Shown here: positions 7,401 through 59,009 of the stretch, piece by piece
Layout of the letters: each line of letters opens with the position of its first letter
Position numbering within the stretch: position 1 is the first letter of the stretch
Source of the DNA: Rubricoccus marinus
GTDB taxonomy: Bacteria; Bacteroidota; Rhodothermia; Rhodothermales; Rubricoccaceae
DNA length: 64,000 bases
Reading direction: 5' to 3'
Assembly: GCF_002257665.1 (NCBI RefSeq)
Contig: NZ_MQWB01000001.1
Span: 3,607,119 to 3,671,118, forward strand
Translations under genes and position numbers: made by a program
The notes under the pieces: model-generated
The model's input: the letters and a program-made list of their open reading frames with translations, nothing else
What the model was told of the DNA's origin: nothing
The model's database searches: none

Positions 7401-8128
7401 AGCCCTGCAAGCGTGCCGCCAACCGTCCGGTAGCCCGCATGCTCTCCGTTGGAGCGGATGGGGTGGTGCCCAACGGCGATGATCTGGGCATCCTCCCGGT
7501 CGCGCAAGAGTGCCTCTAGCGCGATCGTGAGGTCAGCGGGGCTGGCAATGTCGAAGTCCTCGACCTCGCCTTCGGGGCGGTCCTCTGGGTTCTGGAGCCA
7601 CCATGCGGTATCGATCGCGAACAGGCGCAGGCCCTCGGCGAGTTCGAACTCGCGCACGCCGCCCAGCGCGTCGCCTGGCAGCAGCACGTCCTCGCGGCCC
7701 ATCGCGAGATCCAGCGCCTCTCCAAGCGCGATCACGCCCCCTGCGCCTGTGGCCCAGTCTCGGTCCCCAGGGACCGCATAGACCTCTCCGTCATAGCCAT
7801 CGACCACGTCCACGAGGCGCTGGATGGCCTCCGGCGCTACGAATGATGCGGAGTCCACGCCGCCAGAAGGAAGGCCGCTGGCGGTAAGGTCACCGAGAAA
7901 GACGACGGCGCTGTTCTCCCCCGCACGGAGGGCGTCGGCGCGGAGGGCACCGAGAACGTCAGCGCCCGGGACCACATCGGCGGTGTTGCCGAGGAGAAAG
8001 ACCTCGTACGCGAGATCGGCAGCGGGCAGCGGCATCGTGGCCTCTCCGTCGACGTAGCGGCCGGAGGTGGCGCAGCCTGCGAGGAGAGCGAGGGCCGCGA
8101 GCACGGCCAGAGGTCGGGTGGGTCGCAA
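4445..8128 (-). CDS. Calcineurin-like phosphoesterase fused to an Omp85/BamA-type outer-membrane barrel
   Basis: A 1227-residue exported protein. The N-terminus is a lipoprotein-type signal ending LLAGC. Residues about 40-360 carry metallophosphoesterase motifs: GDLTASG, PGDRDWATG, VGHHPIRSNG and AHDHSLQV. Residues about 600-650 contain LLGDWDRHQDQWRW and LPIPRDRDFAFF, a pattern recalling the DRH and metal-binding motifs of HipA/FAM20-like kinases. From about residue 895 to the end, alternating strands with LRGYRRERF and a terminal aromatic (GGFQY) indicate a bacterial surface antigen (D15/BamA) barrel. The start is TTG, two bases after the stop of the upstream lipoprotein gene. Substrates are unknown. 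Phosphoesterase-barrel fusions are known in Bacteroidota; the kinase-like middle is my inference. Confidence 0.82.
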   Translation of the reverse strand: MRPTRPLAVLAALALLAGCATSGRYVDGEATMPLPAADLAYEVFLLGNTADVVPGADVLGALRADALRAGENSAVVFLGDLTASGLPSGGVDSASFVAPEAIQRLVDVVDGYDGEVYAVPGDRDWATGAGGVIALGEALDLAMGREDVLLPGDALGGVREFELAEGLRLFAIDTAWWLQNPEDRPEGEVEDFDIASPADLTIALEALLRDREDAQIIAVGHHPIRSNGEHAGYRTVGGTLAGLGVGPLLRQTIGISGQDLASPTYRSMRSALDRAFAGDAKLTNGLVYAAAHDHSLQVIPVERSPLSTQMYLVSGAAGETRPTASGRGAAYAHPAPGYMRIRYYEDGRTWLEVIELASGGPTVAYRTEISGVNAELLDNEVPDVDPADLPDTSQPVTMAAQDDFASGPFKNSAFTRLAFGGGYRDLWATPFEVPVLDLGTEAGGLSPVKRGGGLQTTSLRLQGEDGNQYGLRLLEKSGLAQVPVELRDGVVADVVRDQRAAASPFGALVAAPLADAAGILYQEPRIVYVPDDPRLGRYRETFAGRLALFEVRADDDVSDVPGLLGAYDVISAQKLREEMAEDQDHRVDQRTYLRARLLDALLGDWDRHQDQWRWSAYEPGELDPSLTGDAATKGKVYLPIPRDRDFAFFRPGGIMGFFLSYSDDRFEPYGEDFTDTYGLSFNGFKQDRRFYNELTREDFEAVARELQGLLPDPVIDDAIGQLPPPIRAQEGTFWGSSLKSRRDDLVEYANRLYRLHAPVVDVVGSNERELFEVTFGSDRMVEVVVSSYKKSEKGGELYRRTLSQEDTDEIRLYGFSGRDRFVINGEGSTRIRVIGGGGEDEVESDFGGVFVYDTPLGMEIDGRAHDRRSDDPDVNRYDPGEYTPTDFSKVPFVSANATDGLILGAGVMYTVSGFRLQPAATHLLYANFATSTLGVQGGYSGRMREAFGNFDLDVDAVASTPRYVRNFYGFGNDTPLLEDVDLARVNLAQIRGEALLGGELGQGLRLRLGPSVRYADAQIGDTPTVASMQLSPEAFEPQVHAGGAGSLTLDLASGGINPKRGVKLSVRGASYLGLTGAASEYSRLGGEAITYVPFLAGSTLALRAGADHRFGDAPFFDSAILGGATTLRGYRRERFTGETIAYGNAEVRAKLFDLSTYLAPVKVGVLGFADAGRAWDIGASGGVFDDLHTGFGGGLWFGVLDYAIINLTVARGDDDETLVTFGGGFQY

Positions 8129-8130
8129 CG

Positions 8131-9036
8131 TTACGGGAGGGGCTGAGGAGAGAATCGGAGAAGGGTGGCAGAACCGCCGCCGCCCTCGTTGGAAACAAAG
8201 AGCGTACCGTCGCGGGCAAAGGCGATGCCCTCAGGCTGAGGATAGAGCCTAGGCGGCAACGAGACGGCAGCGGTGAGGTCGCCCTCGGGGCTGAGCACGA
8301 CGAGCGCCTTGCGCACGCCGGAGATGATGTAGATCTCGCCCGTGCTCGGGTGGACGGCGAGTCCGGACGGTTTAAACGGAGCGCCGCCCTCGTCTAGCAC
8401 CTCGCGGTCGAGCGTGAACACGGGGTCGGGGTCGAGCCGCTCTGCGGCGAGATCGTAGGCGTAGATGGTGCGGACGCCTTTGCGCCCACCGCCGGGATCG
8501 CCTTTGCACGCGAGCAGGAGGCGGTTGCCTCTGGCGTCGTAGGCCAGGCCTTCCACGTCATTGCTGCGGCTAAGGCCGGTCTCGCGCTTTTCCGCTTCCT
8601 CGGAGCCGGTAAAGCGGTACAGGTCGCCATCGCTCTCGACGATCCACGTCACGTCGCCAACGGGCTCGACGCCTTCGTAGTCGCCGCTGTTGTAGAACGC
8701 GCGGGTCGACGTGGTGGCGCCAGAGGCGGGGTCGATCTCGAACAGATCACCGTCCTCGTCCTGGACCGCGAGAAGCCGCCCGTCGTCGGTCATGCCGAGG
8801 CCGCTGATCTCGCGCAGGCGCGAGGGCAGCATCCAGCGCGCGTCGGGCTGGGAGAGCGCGTACGGGACCGTGCCGACGCGCATATCGGCCTCTGGCGCGG
8901 TCTCCGTGCGTGCGAGAACGGAATCGAGACCGTCGGCGCCAGAGGCGCGGTCGGTGCAGGCGCCGAAAGCGACGAGCGCCAGCGGCAAGAGAAAGCGAGA
9001 GAGGTCAGGCATGAACCGTGTGGTACGCTGGGCCAT
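8131..9036 (-). CDS. SdiA-regulated-type beta-propeller lipoprotein
   Basis: The product begins with a lipoprotein signal (LLPLALVAFGAC). It continues with propeller-like repeats such as LREISGLGMTDDGRLLAVQDEDG, NDVEGLAYDARGNRLLLACKG and PEGIAFARDGTLFVSNEGGGG, typical of the SdiA-regulated (PF06977) family, whose enzymatic role is not settled. It is probably anchored at the cell envelope. It ends two bases before the start of the phosphoesterase-barrel gene, so the two are very likely one transcript. An alternative ATG at 9012 would give a shorter signal peptide; the longer form has a more basic N-region. Confidence 0.8.
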   Translation of the reverse strand: MAQRTTRFMPDLSRFLLPLALVAFGACTDRASGADGLDSVLARTETAPEADMRVGTVPYALSQPDARWMLPSRLREISGLGMTDDGRLLAVQDEDGDLFEIDPASGATTSTRAFYNSGDYEGVEPVGDVTWIVESDGDLYRFTGSEEAEKRETGLSRSNDVEGLAYDARGNRLLLACKGDPGGGRKGVRTIYAYDLAAERLDPDPVFTLDREVLDEGGAPFKPSGLAVHPSTGEIYIISGVRKALVVLSPEGDLTAAVSLPPRLYPQPEGIAFARDGTLFVSNEGGGGSATLLRFSPQPLP

Positions 9037-55120: not shown

Positions 55121-55942
55121 TCAGGCGTCCCAGTCTGGCGCGAACCCGGGCTGCACGAGCCGCTGCGAACGAGCGAGCGCATCGATCTGCGCGACTTCGT
55201 CGGCCGAGAGCGTGAGGTCCAACGCGGCGAAGTTGGCCTCGATGTGCGCGCGAGAGGTGGCCTTGGGCACCGCCGCCACGCGGTCCTGCTGGATCAGCCA
55301 CGCGAGCGTGACCTGCACCGGCGTCGCGCCGTGCGCGTCCCCGATGGCCTGGAGCGTCGCGTCTTCCACGACGGCTCCCTGCGCGATGGGGCTGTACGCC
55401 GTCAGGAACAGGCCTCTGGCGCGGACGGCCTCTAAAAGCGTGTCCTGGGACAGGAAGGGGTGATACTCCACTTGGTCACACGCCAGCGTCGGCTCGATCT
55501 CCAGCGCGCGTTCCAGCATCTCGCTGGGTGTGTTGCTCACACCGATCAGCCGTGCTTTCCCCGCGTCGCGCACGTCGGCAAGCGCGCGGATCGTTTCCTC
55601 CAGTGGGATGTCGGCGTTCGGCCAGTGCATAAGGAGCAGGTCCACGTAGTCCGTGTCCAGCTTGCGGAGGCTTTCGTCCGCCACGCGGTGCACGCCGGCC
55701 GCATCTAGGTCGTCGCGCCACACCTTCGTCGTGACGAACACGTCATCGCGCGCGACGCCAGAGGCCTTCAGCCCGCGCCCGACCTCTTCCTCGTTGCCGT
55801 ACATCTGCGCGGTATCGATGTGACGGTAGCCGATATCGAGGGCATTGCGGACGGCGGTTTCGGCATCGCTGCCGCGGAGCTTGTACGTGCCGAGTCCGAG
55901 CGTGGGGACGACGACGCCGTGGATGGAAAGGTGGCGAGGCAT
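55121..55942 (-). CDS. Aldo/keto reductase
   Basis: NADPH-dependent reductase of 273 residues with the AKR barrel signatures GLGTYKLRGSDAETAVRNAL, DIGYRHIDTAQMYGNEEEVG (catalytic Asp and Tyr), VFVTTKVWRDDL (Lys), DYVDLLLMHWPN (His) and RLIGVSNTPSEM. This matches the small-molecule AKR group that reduces methylglyoxal or other aldehydes. ATG at 55942 fits the family start; the upstream frame to 56122 is not protein-like. It is divergent from pgi, with which it might share a regulatory region. Confidence 0.93.
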   Translation of the reverse strand: MPRHLSIHGVVVPTLGLGTYKLRGSDAETAVRNALDIGYRHIDTAQMYGNEEEVGRGLKASGVARDDVFVTTKVWRDDLDAAGVHRVADESLRKLDTDYVDLLLMHWPNADIPLEETIRALADVRDAGKARLIGVSNTPSEMLERALEIEPTLACDQVEYHPFLSQDTLLEAVRARGLFLTAYSPIAQGAVVEDATLQAIGDAHGATPVQVTLAWLIQQDRVAAVPKATSRAHIEANFAALDLTLSADEVAQIDALARSQRLVQPGFAPDWDA

Positions 55943-56171
55943 ACGGGTAGGGGCTATTTCCGCATGCACGCCCCCGCGCCCACGCCGGTTCGCCACAGGC
56001 CTCTGGCGCGGCGGCTGTTCGCGGAAACCGCGAGACGGCTGTTCGCTATCTGAGTGGTGCCGAAAGCGCCCCGTTACGCACGGCGCCGATCTGCCTCTCT
56101 CCACAGTCATCGCCAGAGGCACCGCACGCCTCTGGCGGCGTACAGCCCGCGTCCTCCTCTTTCCCTACGCC

Positions 56172-57440
56172 ATGCGCCTTTCCCTCGACCGCTCCCGCGC
56201 CCTCCCCTTTCTCACCGACCGCGACGCGCTCGACGGCGCCGTGCTGGACGCCCACGGCAAGGTGCTCACCGGCGGCACGCGCAGCCCCGAGATGCTCGGC
56301 TGGCGCCAGATGCTCCTTGAGCCCGACGACGCGCTGATCGAATCCGTGCAGAACGTCGCGAGCGAGATCCGCGAGCGCGCGGACGTGCTCGTGTGCGTCG
56401 GCATCGGCGGCTCGTACCTCGGCGCCGAGGCCGTGAACCAGGCCCTCGCGCCGTACTTCGGAGCAGATAGTCCCGAGGTCATCTTCGCCGGCCACCACCT
56501 CTCGCCCGCCTACCACGAGCAGCTTCTGGCGTACTTGGAGGGCAAGAGCGTGTACGTCAACGTGATCTCGAAGTCCGGGACCACGCTGGAGCCCGCGATG
56601 GCTTTCCGCTTCCTCCGCCGCTTTCTCGAAGAGCGCTTCGACGACGCCGACCGCCGCGTGATCGCGACGACCGACAAGTCCTCTGGCGTCCTCCGTGGGC
56701 TCGCCGACGAGAAAGGCTACCGGACTTACGTCGTGCCGGATGACGTCGGCGGCCGGTTCTCGGTCCTCACGCCCGTCGGCTTGCTCCCCATCGCCGCGGC
56801 CGGTCACGACATCCGCTCGCTGTTTTACGGCGCCGTCGGTGCCGCCAGAGGCCTGACGGATGCGGGCGCGGACCACCCGGCGCTGGCGTACGCGGGCGAC
56901 CGGTTCGCTTTCCACGAGGCCGGCTACAGCGTCGAGCTCATGTCCGTCATGGAAGCCAAGTTGCGCGGGCTGGGCTACTGGTGGCAGCAGCTCTACGGCG
57001 AGAGCGAGGGCAAGGAAGGCAAAGGCCTCTTCCCCGTTACGCTCCAGTACACGACCGACCTCCACTCAGTCGGCCAGTACGTGCAAGAAGGCAAGCGCCT
57101 GTTCGTGGAAAGCTTCTTGCGCCTGGACGACGAGAAGGCAGGCCTGACGCTGGACGAGGAGCCCGATAACCCAGACCAACTCAACGACCTCGCCGGCACG
57201 CCTTACGGCGCTGCGAACAAAGCCGCCTGGGAAGGCACCGCCGAAGCCCACCGCGAGGGCGACGTGCCCAGCTGGACGTGGACACTCCCCCGCATCGACG
57301 CCGACGCTCTCGGCGAAGCGATCTACACCTTCGAGCACGCCGTCGCCGTCAGCGGCACGATGCTGGGCGTCGATCCCTTCAACCAGCCGGGCGTAGAGGC
57401 GTACAAGAAGAAGATGTTTCGCTTGCTCGGGCGCGATTAG
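56172..57440 (+). CDS. pgi: Glucose-6-phosphate isomerase
   Basis: Interconverts glucose-6-phosphate and fructose-6-phosphate in glycolysis. VLVCVGIGGSYLGAEAVNQA and VYVNVISKSGTTLEPAMAFR are the substrate phosphate-binding signatures, GLGYWWQQLYGESEGKEGKG holds the catalytic Glu region, and GVDPFNQPGVEAYKKKMF ends the protein. The 422 residues fit the short (Bacillus/Bacteroidota) class. ATG at 56172. Followed by a motif-based hairpin and the oriC-like region. Confidence 0.95.
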   Translation: MRLSLDRSRALPFLTDRDALDGAVLDAHGKVLTGGTRSPEMLGWRQMLLEPDDALIESVQNVASEIRERADVLVCVGIGGSYLGAEAVNQALAPYFGADSPEVIFAGHHLSPAYHEQLLAYLEGKSVYVNVISKSGTTLEPAMAFRFLRRFLEERFDDADRRVIATTDKSSGVLRGLADEKGYRTYVVPDDVGGRFSVLTPVGLLPIAAAGHDIRSLFYGAVGAARGLTDAGADHPALAYAGDRFAFHEAGYSVELMSVMEAKLRGLGYWWQQLYGESEGKEGKGLFPVTLQYTTDLHSVGQYVQEGKRLFVESFLRLDDEKAGLTLDEEPDNPDQLNDLAGTPYGAANKAAWEGTAEAHREGDVPSWTWTLPRIDADALGEAIYTFEHAVAVSGTMLGVDPFNQPGVEAYKKKMFRLLGRD

Positions 57441-57460: not shown

Positions 57461-57494
57461 GCGGCCTCTGGCGTTCGATTTCGCCAGAGGCCGC
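57461..57494 (+). terminator. Hairpin terminator after pgi made from inverted motif copies
   Basis: Arms 57461-57473 and 57482-57494 pair over 13 bp around a TTCGATTT loop, 20 bases past the pgi stop. The sequence after it (GTTGCGTTC) is only weakly T-rich. Confidence 0.65.
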
Positions 57495-57639: not shown

Positions 57640-58045
57640 CGCCAAACACTTCTCCACATCGTGGAGAACCCTGTGGAGAACAGGGCGCAAGTGGGCTCCG
57701 GTCCACACGCGTTCCAACAATGGGGTACCGCGAGCCGAAAGCAACCACAGTCGGCGCACGCCGCGCCCCACGGTTACCCACGGAGCCCGCGCGTGGACAA
57801 CCCGAGCGGGCTAGGTGCGAGGCTCTGGTGTGGACACCCGTGGAGAAGTGGACAACGTGCTCGCGATCTCACCAGAGGCCTGCGCTCGCGGCGTTCAGCC
57901 CTCCGCCACATGTGGACGGCGCCGGGGAGAACCTCTGCACTTCTGCACGGCGCTCCACAATCGACGGCGCCAAATCGGTTATCCACGTATCCACAGCCCC
58001 TACTATACCCTCTGCTTTACTTTTTTAAGTCTACATGACATAGGC
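57640..58045. other. Candidate chromosomal replication origin (oriC)
   Basis: The 714-base gap between pgi and the stress-protein gene holds no gene but many DnaA-box-like 9-mers. TTCTCCACA is at 57650, and its complements lie at 57660 (one mismatch), 57672 and 57839. CGTGGACAA is at 57792, AGTGGACAA at 57847, TGTGGACAC at 57829, TGTGGACGG at 57911, TTATCCACG at 57979 and GTATCCACA at 57987. Immediately after the last pair is the only strongly AT-rich tract around (about 57998-58037, CTTTACTTTTTTAAG), as expected of a DNA-unwinding element. No dnaA or dnaN lies nearby. Confidence 0.75.
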
Positions 58046-58154
58046 CGGATTGTGAACGGACCTCCGGACTCTGCCCGATATATCGGCGTGTACCACGTGG
58101 AGCACGGCCCCCTCAGGCCCGTATGTTGGCATCCGCTCCTCACGGCCCCCCTTC

Positions 58155-59009
58155 ATGACCAAGCGCATACTCGTCGTCCTCGATACCGATGACGACACGC
58201 CCGTCGCTCTCGACACCGCCATCGACATCGCTCGCCGCTACGACGGCGAGATCACCTGCGTCGCCCTCGTCGACACCGACGCCATCAACGCCGATTCGGC
58301 GGGAGGTGGCATCGGCTCCATGTACTACGCCGAGAAATTACGGGGTCAGCTCAAGGAAGAGACCCGCGCAACGGCTAAGACTCTGTTGGATCAGTTCACC
58401 CAGAAGCTGGACCAGGCCGGTGTGCGCCACACGGGAGACCACGTCGCGGAAGGCGCCCGGGTTCAGAGCCTCGTGGAGGACATGAAAACCCACGACCTGC
58501 TGGTGGCAGGCCGCGAAAGCCATTTCTACTACGCCGAGCCCCAGAAGAGAACGCACACCCTCGCGAAAGTGGTGGAGCAATCCGCCGCCGCCACGCTCGT
58601 CATCGAGAAGGTTATCCCCAATGTGCGTAAGGTGTTGATCGCCTACGACGGCGAGACCGCTGCAGCACGGACGCTCCAGAAGTTTGCTCACCTCTCCCCG
58701 TTCGGGACGGACCTCGCGGTGGAGATCGTCCACCTCCGCGCCGACACGGCAGAGGCCCGCCGCGCGAGCGACGCGATGATGACCCACGCCGCGGACTTCC
58801 TCCGCGCCTACGGCTACACGGACCTCACGACGACCGGTCTGGAAGGCGGCTCCCCATCCGAGCGTATCGGCGCCTACGCCGAGGCCTCTGGCGCAGACCT
58901 GCTGGTGGCCGGTGCGTACTCCACCAAGGGCATCAAGAGCTTCTTTTTCGGCACCACGGCCGTCAAGCTGCTCAACGAGACCACGATCCCGCTCTTCCTC
59001 TACAGCTAG
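58155..59009 (+). CDS. Tandem-domain universal stress protein
   Basis: The 284-residue cytoplasmic protein has two UspA-like halves. The first opens RILVVLDTDDDTPVALDTAI with LLVAGRESHFYY later; the second opens RKVLIAYDGETAAARTLQKF and carries GADLLVAGAYSTKGIKSFFF, a GxxG(9x)G-like loop that is only partly canonical. ATP binding is therefore possible but not certain. ATG at 58155 lies about 110 bases beyond the AT-rich end of the putative origin. It overlaps the convergent oxygenase gene by 4 bases, the two stops sharing the palindrome CTAG. Confidence 0.9.
   Translation: MTKRILVVLDTDDDTPVALDTAIDIARRYDGEITCVALVDTDAINADSAGGGIGSMYYAEKLRGQLKEETRATAKTLLDQFTQKLDQAGVRHTGDHVAEGARVQSLVEDMKTHDLLVAGRESHFYYAEPQKRTHTLAKVVEQSAAATLVIEKVIPNVRKVLIAYDGETAAARTLQKFAHLSPFGTDLAVEIVHLRADTAEARRASDAMMTHAADFLRAYGYTDLTTTGLEGGSPSERIGAYAEASGADLLVAGAYSTKGIKSFFFGTTAVKLLNETTIPLFLYS

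Follow-up and report, generated by a model that had tools for sequence, protein, structure and literature searches.

The intergenic region at positions 57640-58060 of the analyzed DNA is very probably the chromosomal replication origin (oriC), as judged from sequence and comparison. We base this reading on a conserved core that is lacking at the rival cluster of DnaA boxes, conserved gene neighbors, a strand skew switch at the orthologous site of a relative, and the proximity of parS. The same lines of evidence support a sequence-only reading that had proposed an oriC from the arrangement of boxes followed by an unwinding element. The region has a significant cluster of DnaA boxes, an AT-rich element beside the boxes, and parS at a distance of 70 kb. 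The mark of a dnaA-adjacent oriC, a neighboring dnaA or dnaN, was not found, as dnaA is 111 kb distant.

Locus and Flanking Genes

The draft genome comprises 4.43 Mb in 15 contigs, of which contig C1 has 3.95 Mb. The window, i.e., the whole stretch of 64 kb that was analyzed, corresponds to C1:3607119-3671118. The candidate origin fills the gap between pgi on its left and a universal stress protein gene (usp) on its right. The pgi gene for phosphoglucose isomerase (55845-57440, plus strand) matched PF00342 with an E value of 8e-19, and its true start codon is probably located further downstream. The usp gene (58155-59009, plus strand) matched PF00582 with an E value of 2e-20. The sequence-only reading had stated that no replication-initiation gene is nearby. 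This is true within the 64-kb window; dnaA and dnaN are adjacent to each other outside of it, 111 kb upstream of the candidate. The setting in Bacteroidota that it had assumed was not supported, since related genomes place the DNA in Rhodothermota (Rhodothermia, Rhodothermales) and not in Bacteroidota in the narrow sense.

A 10-mer, GCCTCTGGCG, was present in 229 copies in the window (e.g., at 1636-1653 and 57464-57490), compared to 0.6 copies expected from shuffled sequences. Across 2.05 Mb of C1 it had 7200 copies, which frequently form inverted pairs with an offset of 8 nt and show no replichore bias. The 8-mer GCCTCTGG was missing from 14 kb of a relative of the same genus (G001), and further relatives that were examined had few copies. 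The GCCTCTGGCG/GCCTCTGG motif resembles highly iterated or DNA-uptake-type motifs.

The DnaA-Box Cluster

DnaA boxes were counted as matches to TTWTCCACA with ≤2 or ≤1 mismatches in windows of 400 bp. Ten DnaA-box-like 9-mers with ≤2 mismatches are present at 57650-57995, and four of these have ≤1 mismatch; at least nine within 350 bases had been noticed before. Eight boxes with ≤2 mismatches form a left array on both strands (57650+, 57660-, 57672-, 57774+, 57792-, 57829-, 57839-, and 57847-; span 57650-57855). The section of this array at roughly 57829-57855, TGTGGACACCCGTGGAGAAGTGGACAAC, is kept in relatives of the same genus, of the same family, and of family f10. On the right, two boxes in tandem, TTATCCACG (57979-57987) and GTATCCACA (57987-57995), are on the plus strand. 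They overlap by one base and thus have a period of 8 nt. These are exactly the adjacent near-consensus boxes that had been described at 57979 and 57987.

The density scan covered 2.05 Mb (about half) of C1, one of the 15 contigs, sampled as stretches of 20 kb. In this sample the candidate was the densest 400-bp window at ≤2 mismatches, with 10 boxes compared to 8 for the runner-up and a mean of 0.64. When ≤1 mismatch was allowed, the four boxes of the pgi-usp cluster were equaled by four boxes upstream of dnaA, and these two clusters shared the top position (mean 0.04). That the boxes gathered between two genes by chance is extremely improbable. The boxes outside the core are individually loose, with two mismatches, as would be expected under this explanation, but neither the density of the cluster nor the class-wide conservation of the core described below agrees with it, and the conservation alone already refutes it.

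The Core Resembles the Basal Unwinding System

The tandem boxes are followed by the spacer GCCC (57996-57999, plus strand), which has 4 nt in most relatives as well, and by two repeats of the DnaA-trio type, CTACTA (58000-58005, plus strand; 3'-GATGAT-5' on the other strand). The adjoining AT-rich stretch at 58002-58051, the proposed DNA unwinding element, is richer in AT than any other 50-mer of the window (62% AT versus a window mean of 32%). The description of boxes adjoining an AT-rich tract with CTTTACTTTTTTAAG was confirmed, with this sequence at 58015-58029.

This layout was compared to the basal unwinding system (BUS) of bacterial origins, which was defined in Bacillus subtilis (PMC6669920) and is predicted in 85% of 2070 origins (PMC8287927). 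As in B. subtilis, tandem DnaA boxes, a short GC-rich spacer, 3'-GAT-5' trios, and an AT-rich element are present, and their order and orientation are identical. The site differs from the B. subtilis BUS in having just two consecutive trios and tandem boxes that overlap by one base. By the rules of the published BUS program (PMC8287927), a DnaA box with ≤2 mismatches is found within 16 bp of the trios, together with a second tandem box. The program further demands at least three consecutive trios (NAN; PMC8287927), and CTACTA provides only two. At least three consecutive trios were seen in 27 of 46 Rhodothermales and, outside this order, in 15 of 30 genomes (42 of the 76 aligned). The tandem-box arrangement is common to 71 of the 76 aligned members of the class.

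The core sequence pattern is also shared with dnaA-linked origins, as they occur in Bacillota and numerous further bacteria. As a positive control we inspected 120 loci from public genomes with the core pattern, mostly from Bacillota and Chloroflexota; 70 of these have a DnaA homolog within the roughly 8 kb fetched. In contrast to the dnaA-linked origins, the neighbors in the genome studied here are pgi and usp, and dnaA is 111 kb away.

Conservation of the Site in Rhodothermia

Direct DNA similarity sufficed to recover the site from just 6 of 60 relatives. Therefore, a pattern and later a sequence model of the core were used. When ≤1 mismatch was allowed, 27 of 114 Rhodothermales genomes contained a single copy of the core pattern TCCACRTRTCCACAGNNNCTAYNA, and the reversed control gave no match. 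Of these 27 matches, L109 appears to be spurious and L113 is open to doubt. The model of the core was built on 25 loci. It was applied to 40 genomes, comprising the genome studied here and 39 picked because they lack the strict pattern, and detected the site in 34 of these. Among 146 Rhodothermia genomes, 124 had the site. Nearly all of the genomes with a match have it at one locus only; the rare second matches are on the opposite strand and overlap the first.

When the Pgi and Usp proteins of the window were used as tblastn queries, pgi and/or usp adjoined the site in 45 of the 53 Rhodothermales relatives that were read. In many Rhodothermales pgi stays upstream of the BUS and usp downstream. 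Thirty loci were also read from other orders of the class; these have an intact core, but neither Pgi nor Usp was detected next to it. The orthologous origins of other Rhodothermales and of the other orders (f17-f21) agree with the candidate in the core, in spacing, and in the occurrence of one locus per genome. They differ in that the relatives often have at least three trios and an intact right-hand box, both of which are missing here. In one genome of family f2 (G034, L319) the BUS-type site directly adjoins one of two dnaA genes, as opposed to the pgi-usp setting of most relatives.

Strand Skew

For the relative G041, a single contig of 2.82 Mb, 14% of the sequence was sampled for skew. 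All 2-kb bins from 226 to 236 kb showed negative GC skew and all later bins were positive, with the BUS at position 236281. From the BUS as far as about 1.55 Mb the 20-kb samples were mostly positive, and those between 1.68 and 2.54 Mb were negative; one sample at the contig start was positive. The second reversal near 1.68 Mb is about half a chromosome away from the BUS. Like GC skew, AT skew changes sign at the orthologous site and again across the chromosome.

In the genome studied here skew was faint. Neither plain GC skew nor fourfold-site skew was strong enough to pinpoint the origin, and at 4-kb resolution no clean local switch was seen at the candidate. The strand-corrected fit for fourfold sites was better than all of 100 permutations of gene order. 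The best combined fit was at 3.34-3.36 Mb of C1, about 0.3 Mb off the candidate (3.665 Mb); the bootstrap 95% range of 2.94-3.71 Mb includes the candidate, and 36 of 100 bootstraps fell within 100 kb of it. Cumulative GC skew had its peak at 1.63 Mb and the best fitted terminus was at 1.76 Mb, about half of C1 away from the candidate. A search for a dif site at the terminus gave only matches at chance level. The skew of the genome itself thus agrees with the candidate without being able to place the origin. The skew switch suggested earlier as confirmation was seen clearly at the orthologous site of G041, whereas the genome itself showed a broad minimum covering the candidate and no clean switch. 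The counter-evidence named earlier, a skew minimum at another place together with a box cluster of equal quality, was not encountered: the fit about 0.3 Mb off is weak and its bootstrap spans the candidate, and no comparable box cluster was present near the best fit in the sequence examined there (about half of that region).

These data also bear on a function of the cluster in titrating or recharging DnaA, as for sites of the datA or DARS type, instead of replication initiation. Such sites are likewise non-coding clusters of DnaA boxes, but they are expected neither to hold a module of tandem boxes, spacer, trios, and AT-rich element nor to be located at the skew switch of a relative, and we consider a site of this type highly improbable.

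Distances to parS and dnaA

We searched for parS with TGTTTCACGTGAAACA, allowing ≤2 mismatches, in eight genomes (the genome studied here and seven relatives); the reversed control matched in one genome only. Two sites, C1:3594879 and C1:3595475, are 70 kb from the BUS in the genome studied here. Both parS-like sites are close to a RecF-like open reading frame (L093:10074-11417 and 7879-8490; C1 about 3595-3598 kb), roughly 9-12 kb left of the window start. The distance of parS to the BUS was 27-110 kb in all eight genomes. In G004 and G006, dnaA is about 400 kb from the BUS and parS just 27-28 kb. Many Rhodothermales genomes have two full-length DnaA genes (e.g., G020:C1:554 and G020:C1:1718581), whereas one is present in the genome studied here. 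In G041 the BUS is 30 kb and 164 kb away from the two dnaA genes (G041:C1:206270 and 400211).

The four-box cluster just upstream of dnaA (C1 about 3552.8-3553.0 kb) could be the true origin, with the pgi-usp cluster being secondary. It has the same number of boxes with ≤1 mismatch, dnaA and dnaN are side by side there, and the skew of the genome is unable to separate sites 111 kb apart. However, the BUS model had no match at this dnaA locus or at the dnaA loci of 30 relatives, while the pgi-usp-type site is found throughout the class. Moreover, parS keeps its distance of 27-110 kb to the BUS whereas dnaA strays to about 400 kb, and the skew of G041 switches at the BUS and not at either of its dnaA genes. 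We therefore regard an origin upstream of dnaA as very unlikely; the boxes at this position are likely to serve the self-regulation of dnaA.

An Inward-Facing DnaA Box Beyond the AT-Rich Stretch

A feature that distinguishes the class from the BUS is an inward-facing DnaA box that closes the far side in most members, though not clearly in the genome studied here. A minus-strand box with ≤1 mismatch beyond the AT-rich stretch was present in 60 of the 76 aligned origins, compared to about 2 in total in shuffled sequences. It was found in 30 of 46 Rhodothermales and in all 30 genomes of other orders. It is absent from the genome studied here, in which TGTGAACGG (reverse complement CCGTTCACA) at 58051-58059 on the minus strand appears as a degenerate remnant. 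A CTA repeat beside the right-hand box was seen in 10 of 40 Rhodothermales, compared to 1.4 in shuffled sequences. We rejected a fully mirrored BUS on the right-hand side, as only the box is general and right-hand trios occur in a minority.

Discussion

The origin proposed here is ordinary in kind: its core has the layout of the known BUS type, and it is placed away from dnaA. During initiation DnaA would first fill the left array (57650-57855) and next occupy the tandem boxes (57979-57995). It would then load as a filament on the trio strand opposite CTACTA, and this filament is predicted to open the adjacent AT-rich stretch on the right so that helicase can be loaded.

We tentatively suggest, as a possibility rather less likely than its opposite, that the unwinding region of Rhodothermia is bracketed by inward-facing DnaA sites, namely tandem boxes with trios at its left end and, at its right end, a conserved inverted box that sometimes has a CTA repeat. 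The right site, decayed in the genome studied here, could help to position DnaA and helicase on the opposite strand. The placement of the second helicase at bacterial origins has been called unclear, and DnaD was proposed for this role in B. subtilis (PMC10201434). A second DnaA site that faces inward might be an alternative to DnaD. The literature search covered an open-access subset, in which nothing on point was found on the origins of Salinibacter, Rhodothermus, or any other member of Rhodothermia; because of this scope the right-hand box cannot be called undescribed.

The origin is now fixed for the class Rhodothermia, at the strength given above, and the sequence model locates the site in most genomes of the class. 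The position of dnaA is a poor guide to the origin in these bacteria. The class-wide inverted box offers a concrete, testable handle on the placement of the second helicase in bacteria.
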